IMG/VR virus record: IMGVR_UViG_3300004282_000011
Location: 1-21,651 of that record
Reading direction: 5' to 3' (one strand)
DNA length: 21,651 bases
DNA from: a virus
A model generated the notes under the pieces. The model saw nothing but the letters and a program-made list of their open reading frames with translations, had not been told where the DNA came from and did not search any database. Shown here in pieces: positions 1,115 to 21,651 of this stretch. Within the stretch, counting starts at the first letter, position 1, and every line of letters begins with the position of its first letter. The translations under genes were made by a program, and so were the position numbers.

Positions 1115-1116
1115 AA

Positions 1117-1134: not shown

Positions 1135-1136
1135 AC

Positions 1137-1165: not shown

Positions 1166-1196
1166 TATATGGAACCAGAAATAGAAGGGAGAAATT

Positions 1197-2184: not shown

Positions 2185-2195
2185 GGATAAATTTT

Positions 2196-3029: not shown

Positions 3030-3038
3030 AAGATAATT

Positions 3039-6050: not shown

Positions 6051-6062
6051 GGATTTTTATAA

Positions 6063-9000
6063 ATGACTACTGGTGTTAGTGGTGGTGCATTAACTACAAG
6101 TGGTGGTTATCAAGTTAATAGTCCTGTAGGAGCTACTGGTGGAACTATTAGTAGTGGTTGGGGAACTTATTTACAAATTGCAATAATAGTTGGTGGTATT
6201 ATTTATTCTTTTTTTCAAGATAAAGAAGGAAATGATTTTGAAATAGAAGAAATAACATTTAATAATTTTTCTAGAAATATGCCAGTTCCTCTTTGTTATG
6301 GAACTAATAAATATGCTGGAACTTTAATTGCAATTGGAGAAACAGGAACTAAAATTATTACTACTGAAGTTGGTGGTAAAGGTGGAATGATTGGAGGTTT
6401 ATTTGCTGGTGGAGAAGAAGTAGAAACTTTATATTATACTGCTTCTTTTTGTGTTGCTTTTTCTGAGGGTGAAATTAGTGGTTTTGGTACAGTTTTTCTT
6501 GATGATTCTCCATTAATGTCTGGAGTTGGTGATTGTGCTTTACTTTCTAGAGATATTGTTTATACATCTTATTTAGGAACTGCAACACAAACTATTGATC
6601 CTGATATATTAGAATTTTTTGGTGCTTCTGCTGTTCCTTGGAGATATACTGCTTATTTATTTTTGTCAGGTTCCATTGGTCAGCAACCACAATTACCAGT
6701 TGTTTCTGCTGAAGTTGTTGGATTATTAACTAATAGTGAAATATTTGAATCAACTGATTGGTATTTAGACAATATATTCAATCATTCCTATTTAGAAAGT
6801 GCTATTTCTCACCATGAATACAAATATTTTTATACTTTTTCTGCTTATAATGGAAATATTTTTAAAGTTGATTCTTTAACTGGTGAAAATATACTCATTG
6901 CTTCTAGTGGAGTTGTTAGTATTGGTTGGGATAATCTTAGTCGTCATATAGATACTCCTGATGGTGGTGATTTTAGATTAATATATTGTGTTGCTATTAG
7001 GAGTTATGAAGAAAGTATTTGGGATGGTTATGGATGTTTAGAATATGGGCAAGGTATTGGTAGTGCTTCTCAAAATTATAAAATTGGATATGGAGAACAA
7101 ATAGAGGATATTGATTATCTTAGCTATGATGTTTTTTATATAGATACTAGAGATGATTCTGTTCATTCTCTTGTTATTAATGATAGTATTTCTTATTATC
7201 CATGTTTACCTAGAGAATGGAGTCCCTATGTTCCTGGTGAGGGAAGTCTTGAATTCGATACATATGTATATGAAAATTATGGGCCTACTGCTTGGTGGAC
7301 ATATAGTGAATATTATCCTTATATTTCTTTTAATGAAAATTTAGCAGTTACACCATACAAACTTGTATTAGTTGGTGGTGTTACAAGACAATATTCTGTT
7401 TCAATTCATTATGAAGTTGAAGGTGAATGGTATGAAGATGTATTTGGTTCCTATGAAAAATTTGAATTAATGTTATTTTTTAATAAAGATGATGGTAATT
7501 ACTATAATTGGATGGGTTATGAAAGATATGTAGGCTCAAATATTCCATCAATTCCACCTACAGGAACACCTATAGTAATATCTAATTGGATTGTAGTACA
7601 TTTTTCTGGTTTTACTGGTGTAGAACCACAAAATATTTTAATTCAAACAACACAAGCTGGATTTGGATTTTGGGCTTTACAAGATGGTATGGATTTTCGT
7701 TATATTTCTGACTTTGTAGAACTTGAAGGTTGTTGGTATGGCCTTATTAGCTTTGGAAATGATAAAGCTTATTTTGTTAAAACAATGGAATTATTAATTG
7801 CTCCTGGTTCTAGATGGCTAACAGGAAATCCCTTTACTGGTGGTCCTGCACTTTGGCTTTTTGAAGTAATTGCAGAATTAGATGATCCTTATCTTTCTTA
7901 TGGTGCGCCTTTAATTGGAAATATCCAATATTATCAAAAAAGTTTATATTTTTGGTGGAATTATCATTATGAAATAGAGGGAGTTCCACCCCATTCTTAT
8001 TTGTGTAGAGAATTACGAAAATATAATGCTATTGATGGATTAACTATAGATTTTCCTAATTATGGTAAATATTATTATGGAGATGGTAGAGGTTCTTTTT
8101 ATTCAACTCCATATAAAATAACACATGAATTTAATTTTTCAAAAAGTGGTGGATATACAACTGCTAAAGATACTAATCCAATAGAGGTTGTTTATAATTT
8201 TATGACTCATCCTAGATATGGATTGGCTTTAGATACAAACATATTTGATGGATCACCATATATTGTTGACTCTGGTACTTGGAATACAGAATATAATACT
8301 TGTATGGAACTTATACAAAATTCTGATGGTACTTGGGAACCTAGATATTTATATTCAAATGTATTTTTAGAAAGACAAAAAGCTTATGATATAATTAAAG
8401 ATGTTTTACAAACTTGCATTGGTTATTTGTATTATTGTGATGGAAAAATAAAAGTAGGAATTGAAAAACCAAACGAAGTTCCAATTCTTTATTTTGGAAA
8501 TCATTCAGAATATTTTCTTTCTATTAATGATGATATAACTTTTGATTTGGATAGAATTTATTTTGATTTATCTAGTTATCCAACTGGATATTGGAAAGGA
8601 GATGAAGGATATGTACAAACATATGATGGTTATGGGAGTTTGGGATATGGTTATACTACTTATGGTTGTGAAGATACAGATTATTTAAAACAACTTTTTG
8701 TTGTAATTGATAATACAACAACATATATTGAATTAGCTGAAGATTTACCAGTTGGAGTTATAAATAATTCTATTGTGAAATTGAGAAAAGATAATATTAA
8801 ACAAGGTTCTTTTACATATGGTGAAAAAAGTCATAGAGAGAGATCTAATAGAATACAATTAGAATACATAAAAAGAGATGATGATTACAGATTAGATATT
8901 TTAGAACAAGATGATGTTTATGATATTGATGTTTTAAGTAATGGAGAGATAAGAGAAAAAACTTATCAAATGCCAGGGATAAAAAGAGAAACACAAGCTA

Positions 9001-9872
9001 GAAGATTATTAAACTTTTTAAATGATTATAATTCAATTGTTAGATGGAAGTGTGATTTTAATACAGATATTGTAGGAATGTTTTTGTGTTATGGAGGTAT
9101 TATAGCGGTAACTAGAGATGAATTAGATTGGTTTGCCAAACCATTTAGAATTACAAGACTTGAAGAAAATCCAGATTTTGAAGTTTCAATTGGATTAATA
9201 GAATATATATCTTCTTTATATAATAATTATGGAAGTGATTCTTACAATATTCCAGAACCTATTACAATTGATAAGTTTGCTATTCCAGAACAAGTAACAA
9301 ATTTGCATTTATTTGAAGAATGTGATAATAATATAATTACAATCGCTTTTGCTAAACCAGAAGATGATTCTTTTTGGGTTGGAGCTTATATTTATCATAA
9401 GAGGGGAGAAGATGGAACTTATGAATTTATTGGTGTTAGTTATGTTCCAACTACTGTTGTTCAATTATCTAGTAATATAACTTCTAGTGAAACAATTATT
9501 TATTATGATGATGAAACTTTATCTGGAGATGCTTTTCCTTCTTCTGGTTCTTTTTGGATTGAAGATGAAGAAATACATTATACTGGAATTGATACTATTA
9601 ATAATTGTTTTTTGAATTGTGAAAGAGGATATAACAATACAATTCAAGAAGAACATACTTCAGATTTTTATTGTATTTTAAGAAAAGATAATTTGTTTTA
9701 TTTTAGATATATTGAAGATGATGTTTGGGCTACACATTATTTTAAAGCAGTTTCAATAACAGCTTTTAAAATATTTGCTGATGGTGATGGGGCACCAGAA
9801 GAAACAATTGAAATTTTTGGATGTGATTATTTACCATATCCAGTTGGATCTTTAAAAGGAGTTTTAATATAG
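6063..9872 (+). CDS. J-like tail-tip protein, second copy, with a large inserted domain
   Basis: A 1269-residue paralogue of the preceding protein. Shared blocks in the same order are 'RNMPVPLCYG' (71-80), 'PWRYTAY' (192-198), 'VVGLLTNSE' (to 226), then after an insert 'PIEVVYNFMTHPRYG', 'EPRYLYSNVFLERQKAYDI', 'RDDDYRLDILEQDDVYDI', 'GEIREKTYQMPGIKRETQAR' and 'SGSFWIEDEEI' (1161-1171) with 'CERGYNNT'. A hydrophobic segment (35-51) precedes the first block, matching the Gly-rich start of copy 1. Residues about 227-704 have no counterpart in copy 1. The protein ends soon after the RGYNNT domain, so it lacks the final domain of copy 1. It probably forms part of the tail tip or receptor-binding assembly. 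Whether the two copies share one complex or are alternatives is unknown. The ribosome binding site is TAGGGAT (6048-6054). Confidence 0.8.
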   Translation: MTTGVSGGALTTSGGYQVNSPVGATGGTISSGWGTYLQIAIIVGGIIYSFFQDKEGNDFEIEEITFNNFSRNMPVPLCYGTNKYAGTLIAIGETGTKIITTEVGGKGGMIGGLFAGGEEVETLYYTASFCVAFSEGEISGFGTVFLDDSPLMSGVGDCALLSRDIVYTSYLGTATQTIDPDILEFFGASAVPWRYTAYLFLSGSIGQQPQLPVVSAEVVGLLTNSEIFESTDWYLDNIFNHSYLESAISHHEYKYFYTFSAYNGNIFKVDSLTGENILIASSGVVSIGWDNLSRHIDTPDGGDFRLIYCVAIRSYEESIWDGYGCLEYGQGIGSASQNYKIGYGEQIEDIDYLSYDVFYIDTRDDSVHSLVINDSISYYPCLPREWSPYVPGEGSLEFDTYVYENYGPTAWWTYSEYYPYISFNENLAVTPYKLVLVGGVTRQYSVSIHYEVEGEWYEDVFGSYEKFELMLFFNKDDGNYYNWMGYERYVGSNIPSIPPTGTPIVISNWIVVHFSGFTGVEPQNILIQTTQAGFGFWALQDGMDFRYISDFVELEGCWYGLISFGNDKAYFVKTMELLIAPGSRWLTGNPFTGGPALWLFEVIAELDDPYLSYGAPLIGNIQYYQKSLYFWWNYHYEIEGVPPHSYLCRELRKYNAIDGLTIDFPNYGKYYYGDGRGSFYSTPYKITHEFNFSKSGGYTTAKDTNPIEVVYNFMTHPRYGLALDTNIFDGSPYIVDSGTWNTEYNTCMELIQNSDGTWEPRYLYSNVFLERQKAYDIIKDVLQTCIGYLYYCDGKIKVGIEKPNEVPILYFGNHSEYFLSINDDITFDLDRIYFDLSSYPTGYWKGDEGYVQTYDGYGSLGYGYTTYGCEDTDYLKQLFVVIDNTTTYIELAEDLPVGVINNSIVKLRKDNIKQGSFTYGEKSHRERSNRIQLEYIKRDDDYRLDILEQDDVYDIDVLSNGEIREKTYQMPGIKRETQARRLLNFLNDYNSIVRWKCDFNTDIVGMFLCYGGIIAVTRDELDWFAKPFRITRLEENPDFEVSIGLIEYISSLYNNYGSDSYNIPEPITIDKFAIPEQVTNLHLFEECDNNIITIAFAKPEDDSFWVGAYIYHKRGEDGTYEFIGVSYVPTTVVQLSSNITSSETIIYYDDETLSGDAFPSSGSFWIEDEEIHYTGIDTINNCFLNCERGYNNTIQEEHTSDFYCILRKDNLFYFRYIEDDVWATHYFKAVSITAFKIFADGDGAPEETIEIFGCDYLPYPVGSLKGVLI
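6741..8174 (+). other. Inserted region of about 478 residues within the second J-like gene
   Basis: Aligning the two J-like proteins by eye, copy 1 passes from 'GLLVEPG' (198-204) to 'NTIRVLYDF' (209-217) within a few residues. Copy 2 has about 478 residues between 'GLLTNSE' and 'NPIEVVYNF'. The insert is rich in Tyr, Trp, Gly, Ser and Asp. Its start, 'YFYTFSAYNGNIFKVDSLTG', recalls a blade of a beta-propeller ('G.iy.vD..tG'). No family is recognised with confidence. A receptor- or glycan-binding domain is an inference from its position and composition. Confidence 0.6.
9541..9574 (+). repeat. 34-base identical repeat, copy 2 (pairs with 5374-5407)
   Basis: Exact 34-base match to 5374-5407, coding the same block in the paralogous protein, in the same frame. 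Confidence 0.8.
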
Positions 9873-9881
9873 GAGATTTTT

Positions 9882-10703: not shown

Positions 10704-10729
10704 ATTTATTTTCTAATTGGAAATAAACT

Positions 10730-11566
10730 ATGCCTGTTTGGAAATATAAGTCAGGTACAACTGGTGGAAATACTTATCTAGAAGAATTATCTGATTCTAT
10801 TGGTTTTTCTTGTTTACCAGATTTTCAAGACACTCATTTTTTACAAGATATTGTTGCTTTTCAAGATACTACTACTATTAATTTAGCTGAAATATTAGTA
10901 GATACTGTTGGTTTTAATTCATATTTTCCAAGAGTATCTTTTCAATTAATAAGTTGGAATGTATTAAATGATATTGTTGGTTTTTATAGTGTTCCTCCTA
11001 ATGAGTATTCAGAAACATTAGATGAAATAATAGGTTTTGATGATTTATTAGTTGAAGATGCTTTTGTTGTTTTAAGTGATTCAATAGGATTTGATGATTC
11101 TATTTTAGATAATGTTATTTATTTTGATACATTAATAGATACTTCTGGATTTAATGATACACCTTTAGCTCATTTGGAATTTGTTACTTTTATTTTAGAT
11201 GATTTGATTGCTTTTCAAGATATTCCATTACATACTGGTTATATTATTACTTGGAGAGGAAGAACAAAAATTCCTAGAATTGCTTATGGAGGTACTGGTT
11301 ATGGAGAAGTAATAAGTTATGGAGATGGTTTTCTTTCAGATATTTCACATTATCTTTTTGTTGTTAAAAATGAATCTGAAACAATAGTTAGAGAAGAAGA
11401 AATAACAATAGTAGAATTTGATAATCCAGATCAAGAATATAATTATACATGGGATAAAAATGAAACAGATAATACAACAATTACTCTTAGATTAATTTTT
11501 GATGTTTATCAGGTGGATGTGAATGGTTATAGATCTTTGGTTAAAACTGTTAATTTCTGTGATTAA
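10730..11566 (+). CDS. Repeat-containing tail protein with a J-type C-terminal domain
   Basis: A 278-residue protein in two parts. Residues 20-162 hold about eight copies of a short repeat, L-x-D-x-[I/V]-[G/A]-F, often followed by x-D, spaced 18-23 residues apart. Examples are 'LSDSIGF' (20-26 and 115-121), 'LNDIVGF' (79-85), 'LDEIIGF' (97-103) and 'LDDLIAF' (156-162). Residues 186-278 match the C-terminal domain of the first J-like protein in three places: 'YGDG.L' near the start, 'Y.YT...NE.DN' and 'F.VYQV' near the end. The repeats could form a stalk or solenoid ending in a fibronectin-like domain. The ribosome binding site is weak (TTGGAAA, 10718-10724). The position among tail-tip genes supports a fibre or tail-tip role. 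Confidence 0.6.
   Translation: MPVWKYKSGTTGGNTYLEELSDSIGFSCLPDFQDTHFLQDIVAFQDTTTINLAEILVDTVGFNSYFPRVSFQLISWNVLNDIVGFYSVPPNEYSETLDEIIGFDDLLVEDAFVVLSDSIGFDDSILDNVIYFDTLIDTSGFNDTPLAHLEFVTFILDDLIAFQDIPLHTGYIITWRGRTKIPRIAYGGTGYGEVISYGDGFLSDISHYLFVVKNESETIVREEEITIVEFDNPDQEYNYTWDKNETDNTTITLRLIFDVYQVDVNGYRSLVKTVNFCD
10787..11215 (+). repeat. Tandem protein repeat, about eight copies of L-x-D-x-[IV]-[GA]-F
   Basis: Seen in translation at residues 20, 38, 56, 79, 97, 115, 135 and 156, with a degenerate copy at 126 ('LDNVIYF'). Spacings are 18, 18, 23, 18, 18, 20 and 21. The DNA copies have diverged, so the repeat is kept at the protein level. Confidence 0.75.
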
Positions 11567-11577
11567 GGAGAAAAATT

Positions 11578-11976
11578 ATGTCTTTCAGCACAACTTTTCA
11601 ATTAGAAAAACCAGATTACAAAACTTTACGTTATGATATTCCTCTAAATTCTAATTTTGATATTTTAGATTCTGGTTTAAAATGTTGGCCTTCTGCTACA
11701 CAACCTGGAGATGCTGGAAATTATGATTCTATTGTATTAACAGAAGGTGTTTTATGGAGAGATACAACTAATCATCTTTTAAAAGTTAGGGGTGCTGCTG
11801 CTTGGGAATCAATATTATCTTGTGCTACTATTACAACTGTAAATGCTAGTGGAGCTACTGATTTAACTACTTGGGCTGATTTAATTGATGCTGGAGATGG
11901 TGCAGATCCTAAATATGCAATTGCAGTTATTGTTGGAACTGTTACTTATTATATTCCTGTATTTACTGCTATCTAA
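11578..11976 (+). CDS. Small tail-fibre-associated protein, conserved phage type
   Basis: A 132-residue protein. The N-terminal 'FQLEKPDYKTLRYDIPLNSNFDILDSGL' region has the pattern common at the N-terminus of phage tail fibre and receptor-binding proteins ('L.KP......W....N.NFd.lD'). A second block, 'GVLWRDTTNHLLKVRGAAAWESI', resembles the 'lWvDTsn..LK..dG..W..i' element of the same group. The protein is too short to be a full fibre and may be a fibre attachment or adaptor protein. TAAGGAG (11564-11570), which begins in the previous stop codon, is the ribosome binding site. The next gene starts 18 bases downstream. Confidence 0.55.
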   Translation: MSFSTTFQLEKPDYKTLRYDIPLNSNFDILDSGLKCWPSATQPGDAGNYDSIVLTEGVLWRDTTNHLLKVRGAAAWESILSCATITTVNASGATDLTTWADLIDAGDGADPKYAIAVIVGTVTYYIPVFTAI

Positions 11977-11994
11977 TTTGAAAGGAGATTTAAA

Positions 11995-12570
11995 ATGAAG
12001 ATAAATAAAATAGGTGGATCAATTATTTTTCCTGGTATTTTTGATGTTACAATAGAAAAAAGAGTTAAAGCTAATTCTGTATTTAGACCAGTTGGAAGAT
12101 TTTTTGTACAATGTTTTGGTAAAGATGGTGTTTTAAAATGGACTGAAGATTTTAAGAATATTACTGTTGATGAAGGATTAACAGATATTCTTGATGTTTA
12201 TTTTTCTGATGGTACACAAAAAGGAACTTGGTATCTTGGTTTAAAAGGAACAAATCAAACTCCTGCTGCTGGTTGGGATGCTGCTGGTATTGGAACTGAT
12301 TTTACTGAATTTACTTCTTATGATGAAGCTACAAGAGAAGAATGGGTAGAAGCTGGTGTTACTGCAAAAACAATTACAAATAGTGCTTCTCCTGCTGAAT
12401 TTAATATTAGTGGTAGTGGAACTGTTTATGGTGCTTTTGTAGTTTCTACAAATACAAAAAGTGGTACTACTGGTGTTTTATGGTGTTGTTCTAATTTTAC
12501 AATTTCAAGACCAGTGATAGAGGATGATATTGTAAGAGTTGTTTATTCTATTGCTTCTCAGGATGTTTAA
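11995..12570 (+). CDS. Conserved phage structural-region protein ('WYLGL...TEFTSY' family), function unknown
   Basis: A 191-residue protein whose pattern recurs in many phages near tail fibre genes. It has 'VDEGLTDILDVYF' followed by 'GTWYLGLKG', then 'DFTEFTSYDEATREEWV', 'ITNSASPAEFNISGSGTVYGAF' (read with gaps as N-S-A...F-x-I...T-V-x-G-A-F), 'KSGTTGVLW', and an ending like 'GD.l.V.Y.i'. The fold is likely all-beta. The biochemical role of the family is, to my knowledge, not established. The ribosome binding site is AAAGGAG (11981-11987). It is the last structural-type gene before the glycosyltransferase cassette, 14 bases upstream of the GT9-like gene. Confidence 0.6.
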   Translation: MKINKIGGSIIFPGIFDVTIEKRVKANSVFRPVGRFFVQCFGKDGVLKWTEDFKNITVDEGLTDILDVYFSDGTQKGTWYLGLKGTNQTPAAGWDAAGIGTDFTEFTSYDEATREEWVEAGVTAKTITNSASPAEFNISGSGTVYGAFVVSTNTKSGTTGVLWCCSNFTISRPVIEDDIVRVVYSIASQDV

Positions 12571-12584
12571 AATATAGGATTTTT

Positions 12585-13538
12585 ATGAGAAAAATAGTTC
12601 TTAGAAGTTGGCAATCTCCTGGTGATGTAGTTGTGTCAACTATTGTATTTAGAGAACTGCAAACTAATTATCCTAATAAATTTATTCTGGATGTTTTAAC
12701 CCCATATCCAGAAATTTTTTATAATAACCCTAGAATAACTAATATAAAGAAAGATCCAGATGTAGAACTACATAATATTTTTTATTATCCAGAAATAAAG
12801 AATGTTGTATGGACAGGAAATCATGTTTCAGATGGTTATATAGCAGATGTTTCTGAAAAACTAAAAGTTTCAATTAAAAAAGTATCTATGTTTCCTGAAA
12901 TATTTTTAACTGATGAAGAAAAAACTTTAGATGTAAGAAGTAAATATGGAATAGAAGGAAATTTTTGGTTGTTTAATGCAGGTATAAAAAATGATATGCC
13001 ATTAAAAGCATGGCCTATAAACTACTGGAAACAATTAATTAATATGTGTTCTTTATTAGATATTCAACTTATACAAGTTGGAAGTGTGAATCACATACAT
13101 CCAGAATTTGAGGGTGTAAAATCATTAGTAGGAAAAACAGAAGATTTAAGAGAGTATATTACTTTATGTTATCACGCTCATGGTCATATTGGAGGAATGT
13201 CTTTACATTCTCATATAATGGCAGCATTTGGAAAACCTTGTATAGTAATTGCTGGTGGTAGAGAAAATCCAAGATGGGAGTATTACCCAGGACAAATATT
13301 TTTACATAGAGTAGGATTATTAGATTGTTGTTTATATGATGGTTGTTGGTTTAAGAAAAGAGAACAGTGTAAAAAAATGGAAAAATTAGCAGGTACTAAT
13401 TTATACTATCCAAAATGTATGATTTTGATTTATCCAAATATTGTTATGGATACAATTCTAAGATATTTTTTTAGATTTGTTAGTGGTGACTGTGAAGATT
13501 TTTTAAGAGAAAAATTTGCAAAAAAGAGGATTTCTTAA
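12585..13538 (+). CDS. GT9-like (heptosyltransferase-type) glycosyltransferase
   Basis: A 317-residue GT-B-type protein resembling the ADP-heptose:LPS heptosyltransferase family (GT9). The N-terminal 'SPGDVVVSTIVFRELQ' (11-26) matches the GT9 glycine-rich start 'GD....p....L'. 'KAWP' and 'YW' (141-148) lie where GT9 proteins have 'K.Wp...W..L'. 'HIGGMSLHSHIMAAFGKP' (201-218) is the donor-site segment, usually 'D.G..HlAaAlg.P'. The C-terminal part has a Cys group (Cys248, 249, 254, 262, 278). Soluble; no signal peptide. It opens the carbohydrate cassette. TAGGA (12575-12579) is the ribosome binding site. Whether heptose or another sugar is moved cannot be read from sequence. Confidence 0.75.
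   Translation: MRKIVLRSWQSPGDVVVSTIVFRELQTNYPNKFILDVLTPYPEIFYNNPRITNIKKDPDVELHNIFYYPEIKNVVWTGNHVSDGYIADVSEKLKVSIKKVSMFPEIFLTDEEKTLDVRSKYGIEGNFWLFNAGIKNDMPLKAWPINYWKQLINMCSLLDIQLIQVGSVNHIHPEFEGVKSLVGKTEDLREYITLCYHAHGHIGGMSLHSHIMAAFGKPCIVIAGGRENPRWEYYPGQIFLHRVGLLDCCLYDGCWFKKREQCKKMEKLAGTNLYYPKCMILIYPNIVMDTILRYFFRFVSGDCEDFLREKFAKKRIS
13524..13530 (+). promoter_or_regulatory. Ribosome binding site that sets the GT25-like gene start
   Basis: AAGAGGA lies nine bases before the ATG at 13540, inside the end of the GT9-like gene. It supports that start over the in-frame TTG at 13516. Confidence 0.6.
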
Positions 13539-13539
13539 T

Positions 13540-14151
13540 ATGGATTTTTCTATAGTTGTAGTTGCTAATAGAAAAAGAAAAGCAATAATTTTGGATTATT
13601 TAAAAGGTATAGAACATTTAGTTTATTATTCTGAAGATCCAGATTTACCTAATAAATGGAAAGCTGATCCTACTTATAAAGGGTTAGTGGTTCATATGCA
13701 TCAACATATAGGACAATGGAGATGTTTAGAAGCACATAAAAAAGCAATTGAATTAGCTGATGAGGAAAATATTTTAATATTAGAAGATGATGCTAGAGTA
13801 GATAATCCTAATTGGTTGATTATTGCTGACTATGCTTGTAGTTTATTAAATAGATTTGAGATTATAAGTATTCATTCTAGAGAACCCAATTATCCTGTAT
13901 GGAAAAAAGAAAAAAAAGAAGGATTAATTTTATATTATCCAAAAGATAATAAAACTCCTAGAAGAGCTTTAGGAACTCTTGCATATGTAACAAGTAAAAG
14001 TATGCTTCCAAGAATACAAGAACACTTTTATAATGGATTACCAATTGATATTTTTTATGCTAATTGTTTTAACTTTGCCTTCCTTGAACCTACCCCGCTA
14101 ATCCATGATAGATCAAGTGGTTCTCTTATAGATATAGGAGTAAACAAATGA
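13540..14151 (+). CDS. GT25-like glycosyltransferase
   Basis: A 203-residue GT-A-type protein resembling the LPS glycosyltransferase family 25. Key signs are 'HIGQWRCLEAHKKAIELA' (56-73), which corresponds to the GT25 'GC..SH...w..a' segment, and 'ILILEDDARV' (78-87), whose acidic triplet EDD is the metal/nucleotide-sugar site. A later 'ALGTLAYVTSKS' stretch matches the 'g..aY.is...a' of the family, and the end 'IHDRSSGS' fits its usual serine-rich finish. Family members add galactose and other sugars to LPS or lipooligosaccharide cores. The gene begins one base after the GT9-like stop and overlaps the next gene by four bases (ATGA). Near its 3' end (14071-14109) it uses GCC, TTC, ACC, CCG and ATC codons that are rare elsewhere in the window. 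Confidence 0.7.
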   Translation: MDFSIVVVANRKRKAIILDYLKGIEHLVYYSEDPDLPNKWKADPTYKGLVVHMHQHIGQWRCLEAHKKAIELADEENILILEDDARVDNPNWLIIADYACSLLNRFEIISIHSREPNYPVWKKEKKEGLILYYPKDNKTPRRALGTLAYVTSKSMLPRIQEHFYNGLPIDIFYANCFNFAFLEPTPLIHDRSSGSLIDIGVNK

Positions 14152-14810
14152 GCTATAGTCAAAAAAATGAAGATGAAATTATAGAAAATATTTTTTCTAA
14201 ATTAAATATAACCAATGGAAGTTTTGTTGAAGTTGGTGCTGGAAATGGTATTACTTTAAGTAATACTAGAAAACTTTTAGAAAAAGGGTGGAGAGGAACT
14301 TATATTGAAGGAGATAATTTTTTATTTGAATCCCTTGTAGAAAATACTAAAAATTTTAATGATGTGGATTGTTTAAATTATTATATTTCTAATGAACCAA
14401 ATTATAAGTTAGATCATTTACTATATTTATATACAAAAATACCTTCTTTTTTTGATTTTTTTTCATTAGATGTGGATGGAAATGACTATTGGATTTGGAA
14501 GAATCTTAATTATTATTTTCCAAAAGTAGTTTGTGTAGAATATAATCCAAATTTTGAACCTACTGAAAGTAGAGTAATTGAATATGACCCAAAATTTAGG
14601 CATGATAATACTAATTATTATGGAGCATCTGCATTAGCTTTGTGTAATTTAGGAATTGAAAAAGGTTATACTTTAATAAATCATACTGAAGATCTAAATT
14701 TATTCTTTGTACAGAGTTGTTTTTCTCATTTATTTAAAAAATATGATATTAATAATGTAAAAAAGAATGTACACCATTCTCCATCGAAAAGAAGTATGAT
14801 TTCTATTTGA
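14148..14810 (+). CDS. FkbM-family methyltransferase (first of three)
   Basis: A 220-residue Rossmann-fold protein of the FkbM type. The SAM-binding motif I is 'FVEVGAGNG' (26-34). It is followed by 'ITLSNTRKLLEKGWRGTYIE' (35-54), an arrangement shared almost word for word with the second FkbM protein at 16546. 'FFSLDVDGNDYW' corresponds to the 'lkiDVEGaE' motif of the family, here with DGND instead of EG.E. FkbM proteins usually O-methylate sugars or small molecules. The ATGA overlap with the GT25-like gene suggests coupled translation. The usual acidic 'VEP' after motif I is replaced by 'IEG', so substrate use may differ. Methylation of the cassette's glycan is inferred from the neighbourhood. 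Confidence 0.75.
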   Translation: MSYSQKNEDEIIENIFSKLNITNGSFVEVGAGNGITLSNTRKLLEKGWRGTYIEGDNFLFESLVENTKNFNDVDCLNYYISNEPNYKLDHLLYLYTKIPSFFDFFSLDVDGNDYWIWKNLNYYFPKVVCVEYNPNFEPTESRVIEYDPKFRHDNTNYYGASALALCNLGIEKGYTLINHTEDLNLFFVQSCFSHLFKKYDINNVKKNVHHSPSKRSMISI

Positions 14811-14817
14811 GAGGGAG
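14811..14817 (+). promoter_or_regulatory. Ribosome binding site supporting a TTG start for the GT61 gene
   Basis: GAGGGAG starts directly after the FkbM stop and lies seven bases before TTG at 14825. The other in-frame TTG (14807) would place this purine run inside the coding sequence. Confidence 0.6.
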
Positions 14818-14824
14818 AGCAATT

Positions 14825-15898
14825 TTGAAAACTTATGATTGGGTTAATAAATTTGGTGATATTTCTAAAGATTATTTCTTAATTAATCCTAATTATACAT
14901 TAAATTTTAATCTTCCAAAAACCCTGCCAGAAAAAAATTTTTTATGGATTTTTGAAAATTATCAAACTCAATTTTCCCAAGAAGTTTTTATAGTAAAGTT
15001 AAATAATGCTAGAGTTGTTGGTTCTAGTGATAGGGGAATTGCTGGACCTTGTATAGAAACTTCAAATGGGATTATTTTAGAGGATGTTCTTTCTTATTGG
15101 GGAGATACACAAGGTAATTTAAAGAGTAAAAATTGGTTAGAAATAAAAGATAAGGAGGTTGGATTAATTGCAGAAAAGTGGGGTGGAACGAATTATTGTC
15201 ATTGGATTTTAACTTGTTTACCAAAATTACTTTTACTATTAGATAGATTTCCTGATCTTTCTTTTTTTATTCATAACTCTACAGATGTAAATTATGTAAA
15301 AGAGATATTTAATCTTTTAAATATTGATATTAAAAATGTATTTAGTCTTTCTTTAACATCTAATTTGAAATGTGAAAATTTAATAGTCCCATCAAAAATT
15401 GGATTTGGGGTTAATGTAAATAGATTTGCTGTTTCTTTAATTGAAAATTTTTTTGATAAATATTTTATAACTGGTACAAAAAAAATATATGTTACTAGAA
15501 AAAATGCAACTTCTAGAAGAGTTATTAATGAAGATTTAGTTGTAAATTTATTAACTACTCTTGAATTTGAAATTGTTGAACTAGAACTTTTAAGTGTTTT
15601 AGAACAAATAAAATTATTTTCTCAAGCTAAAATAATCATTGCACCACATGGGGCTGGACTTACCAATTTAGTTTTTTGTACTCCAAATACTAAAGTGTTA
15701 GAAATATTTTCTTCATCTTATATTGGTTTGTGTTACTGGTTTTTATCAAATGTAAAATATATAGATTATTATTTTATAGTTGATAGAAATAATAATTCTT
15801 CAAGAGATATAAATAAATGTTTTGTTGATGGTGAGAGAAATATTGTGGTTGATATGGAAGATTTGAAAAAAATTTTAGAAATCATGGAGATATATTAA
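14825..15898 (+). CDS. GT61-family glycosyltransferase
   Basis: A 357-residue protein with the GT61 (DUF563) signatures in order. 'GGTNYCHWILTCLPKLLLL' is centred on residues 120-138. 'YVTRKNATSRRVINED' starts at 222. 'PHGAGLTNLVF' (274-284) is the most conserved segment of the family. GT61 includes xylosyl- and N-acetylglucosaminyltransferases in eukaryotes, and many bacterial and viral members lack a defined acceptor. No membrane segment or signal peptide is evident, so it probably acts in the cytoplasm. The start codon is TTG at 14825, chosen from the ribosome binding site. The stop overlaps the next start by one base (TAATG). Confidence 0.85.
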   Translation: MKTYDWVNKFGDISKDYFLINPNYTLNFNLPKTLPEKNFLWIFENYQTQFSQEVFIVKLNNARVVGSSDRGIAGPCIETSNGIILEDVLSYWGDTQGNLKSKNWLEIKDKEVGLIAEKWGGTNYCHWILTCLPKLLLLLDRFPDLSFFIHNSTDVNYVKEIFNLLNIDIKNVFSLSLTSNLKCENLIVPSKIGFGVNVNRFAVSLIENFFDKYFITGTKKIYVTRKNATSRRVINEDLVVNLLTTLEFEIVELELLSVLEQIKLFSQAKIIIAPHGAGLTNLVFCTPNTKVLEIFSSSYIGLCYWFLSNVKYIDYYFIVDRNNNSSRDINKCFVDGERNIVVDMEDLKKILEIMEIY

Positions 15899-16542
15899 TG
15901 AAAAAAGCTGATGATTTTGATTGGGAAAAATATACAGAGCTTTCTTATCTTAAAGAAATTGAGAAAATGCAAAAAGATAATTATGATTTTAAGGTTGAAA
16001 AATCCTATGTTGAAAATAATAAACTTATTTTAAAAGATAATTTACATCCAAATTGGATTGTAATTTATTCTACTATTATAGAAACTAAAGTTTCTAGTGT
16101 ATATGAAGCTGGTTGTGGTGCTGGTTATCATCTTTATAATATTAAAAAGTTATTACCAGATATTAAAATTGGAGGTTGTGATATTTCAATAAATCAAATA
16201 GATGAACCAAGTAAGGTTTTAAAAATACCTAAAAGAATACTTAATTGTATTGATATTCTTGATTTTTCACAATATAATTTAGATAAAGATTTTTCTAAAA
16301 AATCTTATGATTTTGTTTTTTCCCATGCAGTTACGATGCATTTAGAACATAAAAAAGCTGTTAATTTTATTTATACAATGAAAGAATTATCAAATAAATA
16401 TGTAATGTTAATTGATAATCAAAGTTATGAACATAATTATAGAGAACTACTAGAACAATCAACTATTTTAGATGAATTTAATTTAATTGATATGTCTTAT
16501 AAAAATGTAGAAGCTATCTTTTTAGAAAGAAAGGATATTTAA
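15898..16542 (+). CDS. Class I SAM-dependent methyltransferase
   Basis: A 214-residue protein with motif I 'VYEAGCGAGYHLYNI' (68-82), then 'IGGCDISINQID', whose Asp is the expected ribose-binding acid at the end of strand 2. 'YDFVFSHAVTMHL' is the motif IV region of small-molecule methyltransferases ('fD.v....vl.Hl'). It differs from the FkbM type in these motifs. The substrate cannot be named; O-methylation of a sugar or of a glycan end is suggested by its place between a GT61 and an FkbM gene. TAATG overlap with the upstream gene and a 3-base gap to the next indicate the same operon. Confidence 0.75.
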   Translation: MKKADDFDWEKYTELSYLKEIEKMQKDNYDFKVEKSYVENNKLILKDNLHPNWIVIYSTIIETKVSSVYEAGCGAGYHLYNIKKLLPDIKIGGCDISINQIDEPSKVLKIPKRILNCIDILDFSQYNLDKDFSKKSYDFVFSHAVTMHLEHKKAVNFIYTMKELSNKYVMLIDNQSYEHNYRELLEQSTILDEFNLIDMSYKNVEAIFLERKDI

Positions 16543-16545
16543 AGA

Positions 16546-17181
16546 ATGAATTATACTGTAGTTCCAACTTGCCAAATAGATAATAAATATTTAAATGAAT
16601 TATATTTAAAAGTATTTGGTTATATAAATAATGGTTATTTTGTAGAGATAGGAGGTTATGATGGTATTACATTTAGTAATACTTATGGATTATCTGAAGC
16701 TGGTTGGAGTGGTTTATATGTGGAACCAGTAGAAGAATTATTAGAAAAGTGTGAAGCTAATCATAAATTTAATAAAAATATACATTATATTAATTGTGCT
16801 GTAGGTAATTTTGAAGGTACAGCTAAACTTTATTTGGGTGATTGGGGATCAACTATTTGTAAAAATCTTGTAACAAATAATCATCCATACTTAAATAAAA
16901 ATAATTATAGAATAGTAAAAGTATTTACTTTAGAGCATATTTTGGAGTTGTTTAAAGTTCCAGTTGACTTTAATTTACTTGTAGTAGATTGTGAGGGGAA
17001 TGATTTAGAAGTATTGAAGAGTTTTTCTATTGAAAAATATAAACCAAAAATGGTAATTGTTGAATACACACATGAAAGGTTTACTGAATTTACAGATTAT
17101 TTTAATAATTTTAATTATAAATTAGTAAATAAAGATTCTTGTAACCTGATTTTTGTAAGGGGAGATTTATGGAAAATATAG
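16546..17181 (+). CDS. FkbM-family methyltransferase (second of three)
   Basis: A 211-residue FkbM protein with the clearest family match of the three. Motif I is 'FVEIGGYDG' (32-40), followed by 'ITFSNTYGLSEAGWSGLYVEP' (read as ITxSNT, GW.G, VEP). 'INCAVGNFEGTAKLYLG' is the typical 'v...ig...g...l'. 'LLVVDCEGNDLEVLKSF' is the 'lkiDvEG.E..vL.G' motif with EGND. It is similar to the first FkbM protein through the motif I region, which suggests paralogy. Its last 13 bases overlap the GT11-like gene, whose ribosome binding site (AAGGGGAG, 17157-17164) lies inside it. Confidence 0.8.
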   Translation: MNYTVVPTCQIDNKYLNELYLKVFGYINNGYFVEIGGYDGITFSNTYGLSEAGWSGLYVEPVEELLEKCEANHKFNKNIHYINCAVGNFEGTAKLYLGDWGSTICKNLVTNNHPYLNKNNYRIVKVFTLEHILELFKVPVDFNLLVVDCEGNDLEVLKSFSIEKYKPKMVIVEYTHERFTEFTDYFNNFNYKLVNKDSCNLIFVRGDLWKI

Positions 17182-17927
17182 TTCAAATGTCATGTCTTGG
17201 AAACTTCGGTCGATTTGGCAACCAATTATTTCAATTTTGTTTTGCTAAAGCATATGCAGATAAAAATAATGCAATTTTACAAATTCCAAAAGATTGGATT
17301 GGGAGAAAGATATTTAAGAATATAGATCCTTGGGTTGAACCAATAAAAAAAGTATTACCAAAAACTAAATTAGATGAAATTCCAAATGGTAAAACTGATA
17401 TAGATTTATTTGGTTATTATCAATTTGGTGAAGCATATAATTACTATTCTTATTCTGAAATAATGGAATGGTTACAGTTTAAAGATGAATGGGAAGAAAT
17501 GCTCCCTAAGATTTTACCTTATTATATAGCTTGTCATTTAAGGCGTGGAGATTATGAAAAGTTTAATCATATTTATTGTACCATCTCAGAAAGAAGTTAT
17601 ATACAAGCAGTAAGTGTTAGAGGATATTCTCTAAAAGATATAATTTGGGTATCTGCTGAAAAACCTAGAATTGTTAAAGATTGTCCTTATGATTTTCTTC
17701 CTGATTTTTTTACTTTAATGAACTCAGATGTTTTATTTAGAGCAAATTCTATTTTTTCTATATGGGCAAGTCTACTTGGAAATGTAAAAACATTTTCACC
17801 AAATGTAGAGAATAAAACTGGTTTGAATGTAGATGTTTTATTTGAAATGGGAAATCATAATAAAACAGTTAGTGATTATAAGGGAGCTTCACCACAGAAA
17901 CCAGAAATGTTTATATTTAAACTATAA
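17169..17927 (+). CDS. GT11-like (alpha-1,2-fucosyltransferase family) glycosyltransferase
   Basis: A 252-residue protein with two hallmarks of GT11. 'GRFGNQLFQFCFAKAYA' (14-30) is the N-terminal segment. 'HLRRGDY' (123-129) is the GDP-fucose-binding motif I shared with other alpha-1,2 and alpha-1,6 fucosyltransferases. 'FTLMNSDVLFRANSIFSIWASLL' (in parts) matches the later family segment 'df.lms.c.h.i.snStFsWWaa.l', here with 'SIFSIWAS' in the key position. The length is a little short of the common 280-300. The donor is likely GDP-fucose, though GT11-like members with other activity exist. Codons around the first motif (17202-17222) use AAC, TTC, CGA and GGC, unusual for the window. Confidence 0.8.
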   Translation: MENIVQMSCLGNFGRFGNQLFQFCFAKAYADKNNAILQIPKDWIGRKIFKNIDPWVEPIKKVLPKTKLDEIPNGKTDIDLFGYYQFGEAYNYYSYSEIMEWLQFKDEWEEMLPKILPYYIACHLRRGDYEKFNHIYCTISERSYIQAVSVRGYSLKDIIWVSAEKPRIVKDCPYDFLPDFFTLMNSDVLFRANSIFSIWASLLGNVKTFSPNVENKTGLNVDVLFEMGNHNKTVSDYKGASPQKPEMFIFKL

Positions 17928-17930
17928 GGA
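17926..17930 (+). promoter_or_regulatory. Ribosome binding site favouring the second ATG of the third FkbM gene
   Basis: AAGGA abuts the ATG at 17931 but lies six bases from the in-frame ATG at 17937, the normal spacing. The later start is therefore preferred. Confidence 0.55.
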
Positions 17931-17936
17931 ATGAAA

Positions 17937-18551
17937 ATGACAATAGAAGAAGAATTTAAAGAAAGTATTGATGTTTGGATGAGAGAAAATTTAGAGGAAT
18001 TAAGATATAATTATAGTTTAAATAGAAACTCTATTGTTTTTGATGTTGGTTTTTACAAGGGAGAGTTTACTGGAAGAATATTTAGAAGTTATAATTGTAA
18101 TATTCTAAGTTTTGAACCTGTTTTTAATTTCTTTGTAGAGGGATGTAGAAATATACCAAAGAATAATAAAATTAGATTGTTTAATTATGGAATAGGAAAT
18201 AAAGATACTTGGGAATGGATTTCTATTGATGGTGATAAAAGTAGTATTCATACTAAATCTGATTCAATTAAGAAAAAAGCAGTTATGAAATCTTTTTTTA
18301 CAGTTATTAAAGAAGAAAATATTACCTTTATAGATTTAATCAAGATAAATATTGAGGGTGGAGAATATGATCTATTAGAATATATGTTAGATAATAATTA
18401 TATTTCTATATGTAATAATATTCAAGTTCAATTTCATACTTTTGTTGAAAATGCAAAAGAAAGAAGAAATAAAATTAGAGAAAGGTTAGCAATAACTCAT
18501 AAAGAAACTTATAATTTTCCTTGGGTTTGGGAAAGTTGGAATATTAAATGA
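17937..18551 (+). CDS. FkbM-family methyltransferase (third, divergent)
   Basis: A 204-residue FkbM-like protein. Motif I reads 'SIVFDVGFYKGEFT' (residues 32-45 from the chosen start), followed by 'ILSFEPV', the 'v.a.EP' strand of the family, and 'LFNYGIGNKDTWEWI'. 'FIDLIKINIEGGEYDLLEYM' contains the diagnostic 'lKiniEG.E..lL' block with a full EGGE, unlike the DGND/EGND of the other two, so it belongs to a different FkbM branch. It is likely a sugar O-methyltransferase. It starts nine bases after the GT11-like stop and overlaps the next gene by four bases (ATGA). Confidence 0.75.
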   Translation: MTIEEEFKESIDVWMRENLEELRYNYSLNRNSIVFDVGFYKGEFTGRIFRSYNCNILSFEPVFNFFVEGCRNIPKNNKIRLFNYGIGNKDTWEWISIDGDKSSIHTKSDSIKKKAVMKSFFTVIKEENITFIDLIKINIEGGEYDLLEYMLDNNYISICNNIQVQFHTFVENAKERRNKIRERLAITHKETYNFPWVWESWNIK

Positions 18552-19459
18552 AAGTAATAAAATCTTCAAATAATATAAATGATAAATATGTTCTTTTTTC
18601 TTCTGATAATAATCCAGATTATTATTTTATTCTTCCAATTGCTACTTTAGCTTGGAAGAATATGGGATATAAACCTTTAATTTCTTTAGTATGGGATAGT
18701 AATAATTTATCTGAAAATAAAAATACAGTTATTGAATATTGTAATCTACTTGGGGCTGATATTTTTATTATAGAATCCCAAACTATAATAAAAGATAGAA
18801 GATTTAATGGTTATAATCTTTCTATGTTAGCTCAAATTAGCAGATTTTGTTCTTCTATATTACTTCCTAAAAATTCTTATTGTCTAACCAGTGATGCTGA
18901 TATGATCCCTACAAATGTTGAATGGTTCAATCAACAAAATTTTAATAAAAAAATTCATTTATTTTATGCAAATGGCTATGAGCATACAAGGTATCCTATT
19001 TGTTATATTGGAATGGATACTTCTACTTGGAAAGATGTTTTTAAATTTCCTTCAGAAATAGATATTTATTATGCTTTAAAACATTTACTATCTGATTTGA
19101 ATAGATATGAATCAAATGGAAATCAATGGGGATATGATGAGATTTTATTTTTTAAAAGAATTTCTAAATACAAGGAATACCCCCATAACTGTCATATGAT
19201 TGATAGAAAGATTTATAACAATCTTGGTTTTAAAAGAGGAATGATAGGTGTTCCAAAACTTTTACCTTATGGAAGATTAGATAGATCTTTTTGGAATATA
19301 AAAAGGATATATGGAGATTTAGTTGATATTCATTGTATGAGAAATCCATACTCTAGAAACAATGTAAAATTATTGAAAGAAACTTTAACTATAGTTTTCT
19401 CAAAAAAAGATTATGAAATTATTGATAAGTATATTCATAAATTTGTTTATGGGGTTTAA
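18548..19459 (+). CDS. Putative GT-A-type glycosyltransferase, family not assigned
   Basis: A 303-residue protein whose centre reads like a nucleotide-sugar transferase. 'YCLTSDADMIP' (111-121) carries a DxD triplet after a hydrophobic strand, the usual metal/donor site. It is preceded by 'SMLAQISRF' (92-100), similar to the 'ky.R' helix before the DxD in retaining GT-A enzymes. 'HLFYANGYEHTRYPICYIGMDTSTWKDVF' (in parts) contains the strand where such enzymes have 'fN.G....d...W'. 'NQWGYDEILFFKRI' resembles the 'D...l' acceptor-side helix. I do not recognise a numbered family. ATGA overlap with the FkbM gene upstream and a 3-base gap to the GT10-like gene place it in the cassette. Confidence 0.6.
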   Translation: MKVIKSSNNINDKYVLFSSDNNPDYYFILPIATLAWKNMGYKPLISLVWDSNNLSENKNTVIEYCNLLGADIFIIESQTIIKDRRFNGYNLSMLAQISRFCSSILLPKNSYCLTSDADMIPTNVEWFNQQNFNKKIHLFYANGYEHTRYPICYIGMDTSTWKDVFKFPSEIDIYYALKHLLSDLNRYESNGNQWGYDEILFFKRISKYKEYPHNCHMIDRKIYNNLGFKRGMIGVPKLLPYGRLDRSFWNIKRIYGDLVDIHCMRNPYSRNNVKLLKETLTIVFSKKDYEIIDKYIHKFVYGV

Positions 19460-19462
19460 TTT

Positions 19463-20296
19463 ATGGTTAAGAAGAAAAGATATAGGGCAAAAATTTATTT
19501 TAGTCATTGGATTGGTGAGTTATATTTTCCAATTCCAGTAGCACTTTATAATGTTCATGCTGATATTCCTGAAGAGAAAGATATATTTAATATTTTAAAT
19601 GTTGTTAATGAACCAGAACCAACAAGGATGAGTAATGAAAAAGTTAAAAAGATTGCTAAACATTTTGATCTTATATTAACTTGGGATACAGAATTATTAA
19701 AATTACCAAATGCAAAATTGATGTATATGGGAATGACTTGGATACCAGAAGTTTATTATCAAAATATTAAACTTGAAGATAAAGAATTTAAAGTAAGTTT
19801 TATTTGTGGTACAAAAAATTCTACTATGAATCATCTTATGAGACAAAAACTTTGGAAAAAATATGATGAGATAAAATCTTTGAAATCTTGTTTTTTTAAT
19901 TCTTCACACAATCCAATGACAATAGATTATGGTTTTACTCTTGGACCTAATCCAGAAGAAAAAATAGAAGTTTTTAAAGATTTTCAGTATCATATTGTTA
20001 TAGAAAATTCTTGTTATAATAACTATTTTTCAGAAAAAATAATTGATTGTTTTATTACAAAAACAATACCAATTTATGTAGGTTGTCCTAATATTGATTT
20101 TTTCTTTGATATTAGTGGAATATTGGAAGCTGATAATGTAGAAGATATATTGTATTTTTGTAAAGATTTAACTCCTGAGTTTTATTTATCAAAGAAAAAA
20201 GCAATAGAAACAAATTTTCAGTTATGTAAAGAGTATGCTAGAGATTTTACAGAACGTATTTATGAAACTATTTTAGAGGAAATTGAAAGGAGATAG
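19463..20296 (+). CDS. GT10-like (alpha-1,3/4-fucosyltransferase family) glycosyltransferase
   Basis: A 277-residue protein with the C-terminal donor-binding half of GT10. 'YHIVIENSCYNNYFSEKIID' (176-195) and 'TKTIPIYVGCPNI' (199-211) correspond to the family's '(F)ENS...dYiTEK......g.vPvv.G'. Earlier, 'ILTWDTELL' and 'VSFICGTKN' match the 'vlt.d..l' and 'vsFv.s.k' segments. The spacing and length agree with short bacterial GT10 members. The donor is probably GDP-fucose, but some GT10-like proteins are uncharacterised. With the GT11-like gene, this gives two fucosyltransferase-type folds in one cassette. The start has a weak GGGG site (19451-19454). It ends one base before the sulfotransferase start. 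Confidence 0.8.
   Translation: MVKKKRYRAKIYFSHWIGELYFPIPVALYNVHADIPEEKDIFNILNVVNEPEPTRMSNEKVKKIAKHFDLILTWDTELLKLPNAKLMYMGMTWIPEVYYQNIKLEDKEFKVSFICGTKNSTMNHLMRQKLWKKYDEIKSLKSCFFNSSHNPMTIDYGFTLGPNPEEKIEVFKDFQYHIVIENSCYNNYFSEKIIDCFITKTIPIYVGCPNIDFFFDISGILEADNVEDILYFCKDLTPEFYLSKKKAIETNFQLCKEYARDFTERIYETILEEIERR
20286..20293 (+). promoter_or_regulatory. Strong ribosome binding site of the sulfotransferase gene
   Basis: AAAGGAGA lies within the end of the GT10-like gene, four bases before ATG at 20298. It rules against the in-frame TTG at 20283, which lies upstream of the site. Confidence 0.65.
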
Positions 20297-20297
20297 A

Positions 20298-20975
20298 ATG
20301 GATTATATCATTGCAAGCTTCCCCCGTTCAGGAAATCACCTTCTACGTTACATAGTAGAGTATTTTACAAAACGTCCAACATTAGGTGAGGGTGATTATG
20401 AATGGTCTAGAACTATAGATGGTCCTGTTTTAAATAGACTTTCATTAATAGAACATAAAAAACCCTATGTATATGCAGATCCCGAACCAATAGCAGTTAA
20501 AAGACATAATATTAGAGAGGATGATTTTTTCCTTAGAGATATAACTTATTTGTTGTACATAAAACGTGATATGTTAGAAGCTATATTGAGACATGGATTA
20601 CATAATAAAAGTATAGAATTTTTAGTTGAACCAGAAAATAATTATCTACAAGAATTAATAAAAATGTATGATAATTTAGAAAATGATGTAAAACAATTTT
20701 ATAGTGTCTTAACAATATCTTTTGAAGAACTTGTTTTTGAACCAGCAAAACTAAGAATGATTCTTACAGATATTGTTGATTTTTTTGAATTAAAAAAGAA
20801 AACAATAAATATAGGATGGTTTGTAAAGAATTGGGATAAACATCAAGAAAAGTGTAAGTTAGTTTTCAATGAAATTAATCATATGGAATATGAAGATTCT
20901 CCTACATTTTGGCAAGATAAATTAACTATTGAACAATTAAACTATGTAAAGGAAAGAATAGAAAATGCCTATTGA
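20298..20975 (+). CDS. Sulfotransferase-like protein
   Basis: A 225-residue protein with a P-loop-like N-terminus typical of PAPS-dependent sulfotransferases. 'SFPRSGNHLLRYIVEY' (7-22) corresponds to the 5'-phosphosulfate-binding 'SyPKSGttwL...' motif. 'YLLYIKRDMLEAILRH' lies where the 3'-phosphate-binding 'v.R.p.d...S' motif is expected and keeps the Arg-Asp pair, but the usual Ser is not evident. 'ISFEELVFEP' resembles the 'v.yEdLv..P' segment, and 'FWQDKLTIEQL' is like the family's C-terminal 'w...lt.e'. It would transfer sulfate from PAPS to a hydroxyl, here probably of the cassette glycan. Codons at 20307-20351, over the first motif, are GC-richer than the surroundings. It overlaps the next gene by 11 bases. 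Confidence 0.75.
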   Translation: MDYIIASFPRSGNHLLRYIVEYFTKRPTLGEGDYEWSRTIDGPVLNRLSLIEHKKPYVYADPEPIAVKRHNIREDDFFLRDITYLLYIKRDMLEAILRHGLHNKSIEFLVEPENNYLQELIKMYDNLENDVKQFYSVLTISFEELVFEPAKLRMILTDIVDFFELKKKTINIGWFVKNWDKHQEKCKLVFNEINHMEYEDSPTFWQDKLTIEQLNYVKERIENAY

Positions 20976-21522
20976 TAATGTAGATTTTCTTAAAAAATAT
21001 GCTTATAATAATTATTTTGTAGAAACAGGAACTTTTGTGGGGGCTACAGTACAATTAGCTTTAGATGCTGGTTTTAAATATATAAAAAGTGTAGAATTAT
21101 CTCCAGAAAATTATTGGAATTGTGTATTCAAATTTAAAGATAACAAAAATGTGAATCTATACTTTGGAGAATCTGAAAAATTATTTTGGGATATGATTAA
21201 AAATATAGAAGAACCCATTACGTTTTTTCTTGATTCTCATTATAGTGGTGTTACTGATTATTATACAACTGCTAAAGGAAGAACTTATAGTTCTTTAGTT
21301 TCTGAATTGGTAACTATTGCTAAACATCCTATTAGAAATCATACAATATTAATAGATGATATTAGAGATTTAGGTACTATAAATATGGATTTTATACCTA
21401 TGGAAGATGTACTTCAATTAATTGAAAATATAAATCCAGATTATAATATTTCATTTGATACTGGTGATAGTTCTCAACATTTATTTATAGATGATATACT
21501 TGTTGCAATAATAAAACAATGA
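20965..21522 (+). CDS. SAM-dependent methyltransferase-like protein
   Basis: A 185-residue Rossmann-type protein. 'FVETGTFVGATVQLALDAGF' (18-37) is a motif I variant (ETGTFVGAT). It is followed by 'IKSVELSPENY' (40-50), with Glu44 at the end of strand 2, and 'NVNLYFGESEKLF', the 'v....gds...l' strand. 'ITFFLDSHYSG' holds the Asp-Ser-His motif after strand 4, and 'HTILIDDIRDLG' a second acidic site. This 'ETGTF.G.t' group occurs in glycan gene clusters and is often labelled as methyltransferase, but I know of no defined substrate for it. It overlaps the sulfotransferase gene by 11 bases and the next gene by four (ATGA). Confidence 0.65.
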   Translation: MPIDNVDFLKKYAYNNYFVETGTFVGATVQLALDAGFKYIKSVELSPENYWNCVFKFKDNKNVNLYFGESEKLFWDMIKNIEEPITFFLDSHYSGVTDYYTTAKGRTYSSLVSELVTIAKHPIRNHTILIDDIRDLGTINMDFIPMEDVLQLIENINPDYNISFDTGDSSQHLFIDDILVAIIKQ

Positions 21523-21651
21523 AAAAAGTTATTACACTAACAGCTTATAATAGACCTCAGTATTTAAAATTATTATTAGAATCTTTATCTAATAATAATT
21601 TAAATGGTTATGAATGTTTATATATTAATATTGAACCAAGAAATAGAAAAG
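21519..21651 (+). CDS. Probable glycosyltransferase, N-terminal fragment (3' end outside window)
   Basis: The ATG overlaps the stop of the previous gene (ATGA), and the frame stays open to the window edge, giving 44 residues. They begin 'MKKVITLTAYNRPQYLKLLL' and continue to 'YECLYINIEP'. This is the first strand, substrate loop ('T.yNRp..l') and second strand typical of GT-A transferases such as GT2. No ribosome binding site stands out, so translation is probably coupled to the upstream gene. The assignment rests on the N-terminus only. Confidence 0.6.
   Translation, partial: MKKVITLTAYNRPQYLKLLLESLSNNNLNGYECLYINIEPRNRK

Follow-up and report, generated by a model that had tools for sequence, protein, structure and literature searches.

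A phage cassette of glycan-building and glycan-modifying genes directly behind the tail block, anchored by a lineage-conserved, cysteine-rich GT9 enzyme

Gene sets for glycan synthesis have been described near the structural genes of several phages. Mycobacteriophage Corndog (cluster O) carries an O-methyltransferase and glycosyltransferases (gp35-gp38) inside its virion operon, for which modification of the capsid was proposed in 2015 (PMC4351075). Pelagimyophages have clusters of glycan genes beside their tail fibers (PMC7029224), and published accounts of jumbo cyanophages also describe such clusters. Here, we analyzed a gene cassette in the virus record IMGVR_UViG_3300004282_000011, the whole of which (21,651 bases; hereafter, the window) forms a complete IMG/VR record with no host given. 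A preliminary description of this DNA had proposed a phage-borne cassette of many transferases directly after the tail genes. We found that the cassette is real, largely as first described: twelve open reading frames (ORFs) follow the tail block from position 12585 with near-zero spacing, and their products appear able, judging by their family assignments, to assemble a sugar chain and to fucosylate, methylate and probably sulfate it. The first gene, a GT9-type glycosyltransferase, is the lineage-conserved anchor of the cassette and its most informative part. We give a probability of roughly one half to the reading that the cassette is expressed late and places glycans on the virion of the phage itself, its tail-tip or receptor-binding proteins being the likeliest targets.

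Gene content and operon-like layout were observed directly. The twelve ORFs lie on the + strand from 12585 to 21522, encode proteins of 185–363 amino acids, and are separated by -13 to +3 bases. The last tail gene ends at 12570, the GT9 start codon lies at 12585, and no terminator-like site was found on the + strand. At the far end, a thirteenth, GT2-like ORF (21519..21651, +; sequence read directly) starts with an ATGA overlap; its protein begins MKKVITLTAYNRPQYLKLLLESL, as read by eye, and runs off the contig. The contig end thereby cuts the cassette, and the following negative results extend only that far: profile searches found no nucleotide-sugar synthesis genes among the twelve ORFs, no 19-residue stretch of a cassette protein exceeds a Kyte-Doolittle hydrophobicity of 1.6, and no flippase, polymerase, ligase or membrane-like segment was found.

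The preliminary description called continuous assembly lines with methylation and sulfation uncommon in phages, a claim that comparison with other loci did not support. The cultured cyanophages S-SCSM1, S-SM2 and S-CAM7 have glycan clusters of 8–25 genes: an unbroken run of epimerases, at least seven glycosyltransferases, methyltransferases and a NodZ-type fucosyltransferase in S-SCSM1; about 25 sugar genes in S-SM2; and GT11, adenylylsulfate (APS) kinase and further transferases directly ahead of a tail fiber gene in S-CAM7. Like the window, these clusters combine GT11 or other fucosyltransferases with methyltransferases, and their GT11 and MT24 (methyltransferase-like) genes are homologous to those of the window. 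Unlike the window, they contain nucleotide-sugar synthesis genes and belong to T4-like phages, and the clusters of S-SCSM1 and S-SM2 do not adjoin a tail-tip block. In 49/160 IMG/VR loci (fetched loci carry L numbers below), three or more ORFs belonging to the families of the window cassette lay within about 8 kb; this sample was biased by having been fetched via GT11 or MT24 and hence gives no frequency among phages. One of the comparable loci, L200 (3300017952_004623), holds FkbM, GT10, GT11 and two sulfotransferases together; it differs from the window in having GDP-mannose-dehydratase-like and APS-kinase-like genes (read by eye), and no tail genes were seen nearby. With the Corndog set, the window cassette shares methyltransferase and glycosyltransferase genes in operon-like continuity with structural genes, which the window cassette follows directly, on the same strand and with tight spacing; the four Corndog genes sit between portal and protease in an actinobacterial phage, with no sulfotransferase or FkbM described there. 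The host recognition cluster of pelagimyophages is likewise a variable, glycosyltransferase-rich region within the structural genes and beside the tail fibers, but it belongs to T4-like myophages, GT8 is dominant, and its authors favor a change of the host O-chain (PMC7029224). In short, phage glycan cassettes near structural genes were already known, and the window cassette is one more of these.

Two loci place such genes behind a gpJ-type tail gene. In L127, the gpJ-type gene is followed by GT2, GT25-like, GT11, GDP-mannose dehydratase, MT24 and FkbM genes. L203, a phage-like region in a contig of a Phycisphaerae metagenome-assembled genome, has a gpJ-type gene, an integrase-like ORF and a GT9 of the same type as the window's; directly after gpJ come a glycosyltransferase, two methyltransferases, a GT2 and a GT9-GT4 fusion (annotated by eye), the apparent fusion lying at L203:5998-7851. 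The Phycisphaerae binning, if right, is a weak hint to host range. A search with PF13550 across 50 records with GT11, MT24 or GT9 genes found only L127 and the genome of L203; therefore, a gpJ neighborhood is not the rule for these genes. Iterated profiles of the window's tail proteins missed the gpJ of L127, although Pfam detects it.

Most cassette proteins fell into transferase families in profile searches, either directly or via homologues, as the preliminary description had expected. Besides GT9 (12585..13538, see below), profile or solved-structure matches directly support the assignment of five further + strand genes: a GT61 glycosyltransferase with a TTG start (14807..15898; Pfam Glyco_transf_61, 1.6e-30); a class I S-adenosylmethionine methyltransferase, MT12 (15898..16542; Pfam Methyltransf_12 at 5.2e-9, above cut-off, and TIGR03587 at 8.5e-9, below cut-off); the FkbM methyltransferases b (16546..17181; Pfam 9.1e-22, TIGR01444 above cut-off) and c (17931..18551; Pfam 1.6e-9, TIGR01444 at 53 bits, above cut-off); and a GT10-like alpha-1,3-fucosyltransferase (19463..20296), whose Pfam match of 6.3e-4 is below cut-off but which matches the solved alpha-1,3-fucosyltransferases 2nzw (7.3e-7) and 5zoi (1.2e-6).

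Homologues support four more assignments on the same strand. The putative GT11-like fucosyltransferase (17169..17927) matches cyanophage GT11 genes by tblastn (4e-5) with shared motifs, its own motifs being GRFGNQLFQF and HLRRGDY, and a homologue in L123 passes the Pfam GT11 cut-off at 9.3e-7. FkbM-like methyltransferase a (14148..14810) scores below the Pfam FkbM cut-off (0.019) and matches FkbM b by BLAST at 7e-15. The sulfotransferase-like ORF (20298..20975; motif PRSGNHLLR) has no direct Pfam match and is homologous to an L200 ORF matching Pfam Sulfotransfer_3 at 6e-4; its start was reset from TTG 20283 to ATG 20298, with GGAG ahead. MT24 (20965..21522), with no Pfam match, is 34–37% identical to proteins of S-SCSM1 and S-SM2, the former annotated as a methyltransferase. 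While these labels, including all three FkbM proteins, are supported, the GT25 and GT-A labels are given by acidic motifs only. The GT-A-like, GT25-like candidate (13540..14151, +; motif ILEDDA) has no Pfam match, and nor do its homologues in L127 and L124; it is 31% identical to an L127 protein that adjoins a GT11. For the putative GT-A enzyme (18548..19459, +; motif SDADM), no match was found in Pfam, NCBIfam, PHROGs, phages or the fetched loci, matches in the PDB were at chance level only, and a single-sequence AlphaFold model had a predicted local distance difference test score (pLDDT) of 33 and was unusable.

A comparison with relatives set the conserved first gene of the cassette apart from the other eleven. 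A homologous GT9, 37–45% identical to that of the window, follows the same tail block in 8/8 relatives that extend at least 4 kb beyond the block (contigs of L002, L004, L006, L007, L008, L010, L011 and L017). The preliminary description had suggested checking whether the cassette always sits after the tail genes in related phages; this held for GT9, but not for the other eleven genes: phmmer found no counterpart of these among the relatives' loci, 33 in the first set fetched, and FkbM and GT61 had none in the full records of 18 relatives. Nor did GT61 match any viral contig in a single-sequence search, and GT9 and GT61 found no match in cultured phages by tblastn. The eleven genes look like a variable insert, with content at this site varying among relatives. 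Since GT9 follows the same tail block in relatives, the tail-GT9 junction is credible as a natural one. In the relatives, where read, a 150-amino-acid gene and two collar/beta-propeller-like genes stand between GT9 and the last structural-block gene; these are absent in the window, where GT9 comes directly after that gene. Other features of the region downstream of GT9 in relatives include a second, more distant GT9-like gene after a beta-propeller-like ORF (L002:19193-20029 and L005:11766-12596), and series of repeated paralogous ORFs, each about 340 amino acids long (L004:11773-16744), which are possibly lectin-like fiber proteins; the one examined had no Pfam match.

The window GT9 scores 19.6 bits against a Pfam cut-off of 22 (6.4e-4), and four phage homologues score above cut-off (1e-7 to 1e-10). 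Its AlphaFold2 model (pLDDT 81) matches the structures 3tov (Z 23.7), WaaF (Z 21.1) and TibC (Z 19.1). Sequence and model together assign the protein to GT9, with a predicted GT-B fold. Residues D14, K141 and H210, at the catalytic positions of WaaC and WaaF, fall in columns that are invariant with WaaF and WaaC of E. coli K-12, and because of this alignment the enzyme is probably active. The phage enzymes differ from WaaF and WaaC in a C-lobe segment. In a comparison of ten phage GT9s, the L203 GT9 and the two E. coli K-12 enzymes, cysteines 248, 249, 254, 262 and 278 were invariant across the ten phage GT9s, most of the five were retained in the same stretch of the L203 protein, and the stretch was entirely absent from WaaF and WaaC.

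A cysteine cluster is also found in TibC, which is GT9-like and transfers heptose to autotransporter proteins; it has an essential Fe-Cys4 finger at 339-370, which its authors tied to dimerization and substrate recognition (PMC4358343). With the C-terminal limits of the structural alignment (residue 394 in TibC, 302 in the model) as reference points, the TibC finger lies 55 to 24 residues upstream and the GT9 cysteines 54 to 24. The autotransporter heptosyltransferases (BAHT) TibC and AAH resemble the phage enzyme in their GT9-type fold and in a cysteine cluster at a comparable C-lobe place. The phage GT9 differs in cysteine spacing, misses the family model, and lacks the N-terminal beta-barrel of the TibC type: residue 1 of the model aligns to TibC 96, and the barrel comprises 1-97. 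The coincidence of the cysteine regions, drawn from range ends where local model confidence is low, is a lead, not proof.

We infer the acceptor, the sugars, the order of the steps and their timing as follows. Late in infection, a Ser or Thr residue of a tail protein would receive its first sugar from the GT9-type enzyme; the sugar would perhaps be heptose-like and supplied by the host as a nucleotide sugar, and the cysteine segment of the enzyme would contribute to recognition of the protein. The GT25-like, GT61, GT-A, GT11 and GT10 enzymes would then lengthen and branch the chain, GT11 and GT10 adding fucose from host GDP-fucose, while the three FkbM and two other methyltransferases would cap hydroxyls and the sulfotransferase would add sulfate. 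As benefits, one may speculate about evasion of antibodies, proteases or host decoys, or about altered adsorption. Several observations speak for a virion target. Read in the same direction as the structural genes, the cassette prolongs their block, and the + strand shows no terminator; L127 and L203 carry a glycan cassette directly after gpJ; and in all eight relatives GT9 lies amid virion genes (collar-domain and beta-propeller-like ORFs). Because GT9 is fixed there in relatives without FkbM or GT61, it likely acts on something tied to the virion module, and this fixed place together with the cysteine region favors a protein acceptor in the virion. Glycans on virions have a precedent in mycobacteriophage capsids and tail tubes (Freeman 2023, as cited in PMC12619734), and the proposal for the Corndog operon is another. 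In a more specific version, the phage GT9 would, much like TibC, be a protein-O-glycosyltransferase equipped with a metal finger as its acceptor module, and would prime a fucosylated, methylated and sulfated tail-tip glycan; relatives would keep the priming enzyme only, while this phage would have acquired the full extension set. This version is tentative and, taken as a whole, rather unlikely.

Weighing against a virion target is that soluble cytosolic enzymes fit the building of a lipopolysaccharide (LPS) core equally well. Moreover, the positional comparison of GT9 with TibC is one of range ends only, the cysteine spacing is unlike that of TibC, and model residues 242-252 have a pLDDT under 50. 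The nearest structural match, 3tov, which ranks ahead of TibC, is a GT9 with an acceptor that is not known, and the TibC-type model TIGR04414 found no match in the window protein and reached 13.9 bits in one relative, against a cut-off of 200. The cassette might instead remodel the host surface, altering the LPS core, the O-chain or the capsule in the course of infection (or of lysogeny) and so blocking superinfection or the re-adsorption of progeny to debris, which we hold to be a serious but doubtful possibility. GT9, GT25, GT10, GT11 and GT61 are families typical of surface glycans. For similar clusters, the authors on pelagimyophages (PMC7029224) and on jumbo cyanophages preferred this explanation. 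As far as the contig extends, the cassette has no membrane-like segment, polymerase, flippase or ligase, which counts against surface remodeling, but a flippase is unnecessary for a core modified in the cytosol, and the lack of membrane proteins does not separate the two readings, since LPS cores are likewise assembled there. Further points against it are the location in the structural block, which suggests late expression, the fixation of GT9 among virion genes in relatives without the remaining cassette, and the cysteine segment that WaaF and WaaC lack.

Decoration of modified bases in the phage genome appears improbable. Glycans on DNA can be the work of phage glycosyltransferases (Pyle 2024, as cited in PMC12619734), and the genome outside the window is unseen; yet the cassette lies on the tail side and the window holds no base-modifying gene. 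No action of FkbM proteins, fucosyltransferases or sulfotransferases on DNA is known. Even less probable is a misassembly that joined glycan genes of the host or of another phage to the tail genes. GC content is 0.254 in the cassette and 0.296 in the tail block (p = 0.003), GC at third codon positions also differs, an identical contig from another assembly (L003) stops short of the cassette, and no other viral contig matched a pattern of 27 bases taken from the 3' end of the window. However, the composition shift is also compatible with recent acquisition, and the GT9 gene, common to relatives, is intermediate (0.280). The recurrence of the tail block followed by GT9 in relatives argues against misassembly at that junction, and genes abut or overlap over the whole stretch. 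Beyond GT9, the internal continuity of the cassette rests on one assembly and on these abutting genes, with no independent contig covering it, so that the concern about misassembly was answered for the junction only.

The tail block ahead of the cassette (positions 2-12570) is of siphovirus type and encodes the end of a tape-measure protein, an HNH/AP2-type endonuclease, a DUF2460-like protein, a BR0599-type hub, an NlpC/P60 protein, two tandem gpJ-type proteins and four smaller proteins. The tape-measure protein in the window is the C-terminal part of one that has 2441 amino acids in L003; on that strand, L003 and its upstream part, L204, also carry genes for head-tail connectors and for tail completion. 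The gpJ-like tail tip proteins 1 (3480..6050, +; PHROG 1101 at 1.5e-26, PHROG 31 at 3e-24) and 2 (6063..9872, +; PHROG 31 at 8.5e-22) are tandem paralogues by their alignment, in which the second is longer by about 480 residues (223-702); relatives, e.g., L002, L014, L016, L017 and L020, likewise have gpJ-type genes in tandem. The last gene of the block (11995..12570, +; PHROG 8123 at 8e-31) has homologues in 22 other viral contigs. The endonuclease ORF (1197-1844) lies directly after the tape-measure gene and overlaps the next ORF; the sole match in a DNA-level search for close relatives of the window was a 68-base stretch of this homing endonuclease, which two Staphylococcus phages share at 84% identity in their AP2/HNH genes. 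Defence-system models gave no match. In L204 (3634-4149) and L005 (12596-13063), response-regulator-like ORFs with a receiver domain occur amid structural genes, each followed by a coiled-coil-like ORF.

Phage glycan cassettes are usually read as tools acting on the surface of the host. Glycosylation of the tail itself becomes a directly testable alternative with a GT9 that, throughout a phage lineage, keeps its place next to receptor-binding genes and has a cysteine segment that LPS-type enzymes do not have; this lineage-conserved, cysteine-rich enzyme is the part worth following. If the reading is true, tail glycans would bear on how phages adsorb, on their recognition by antibodies and on structural studies of their tails.

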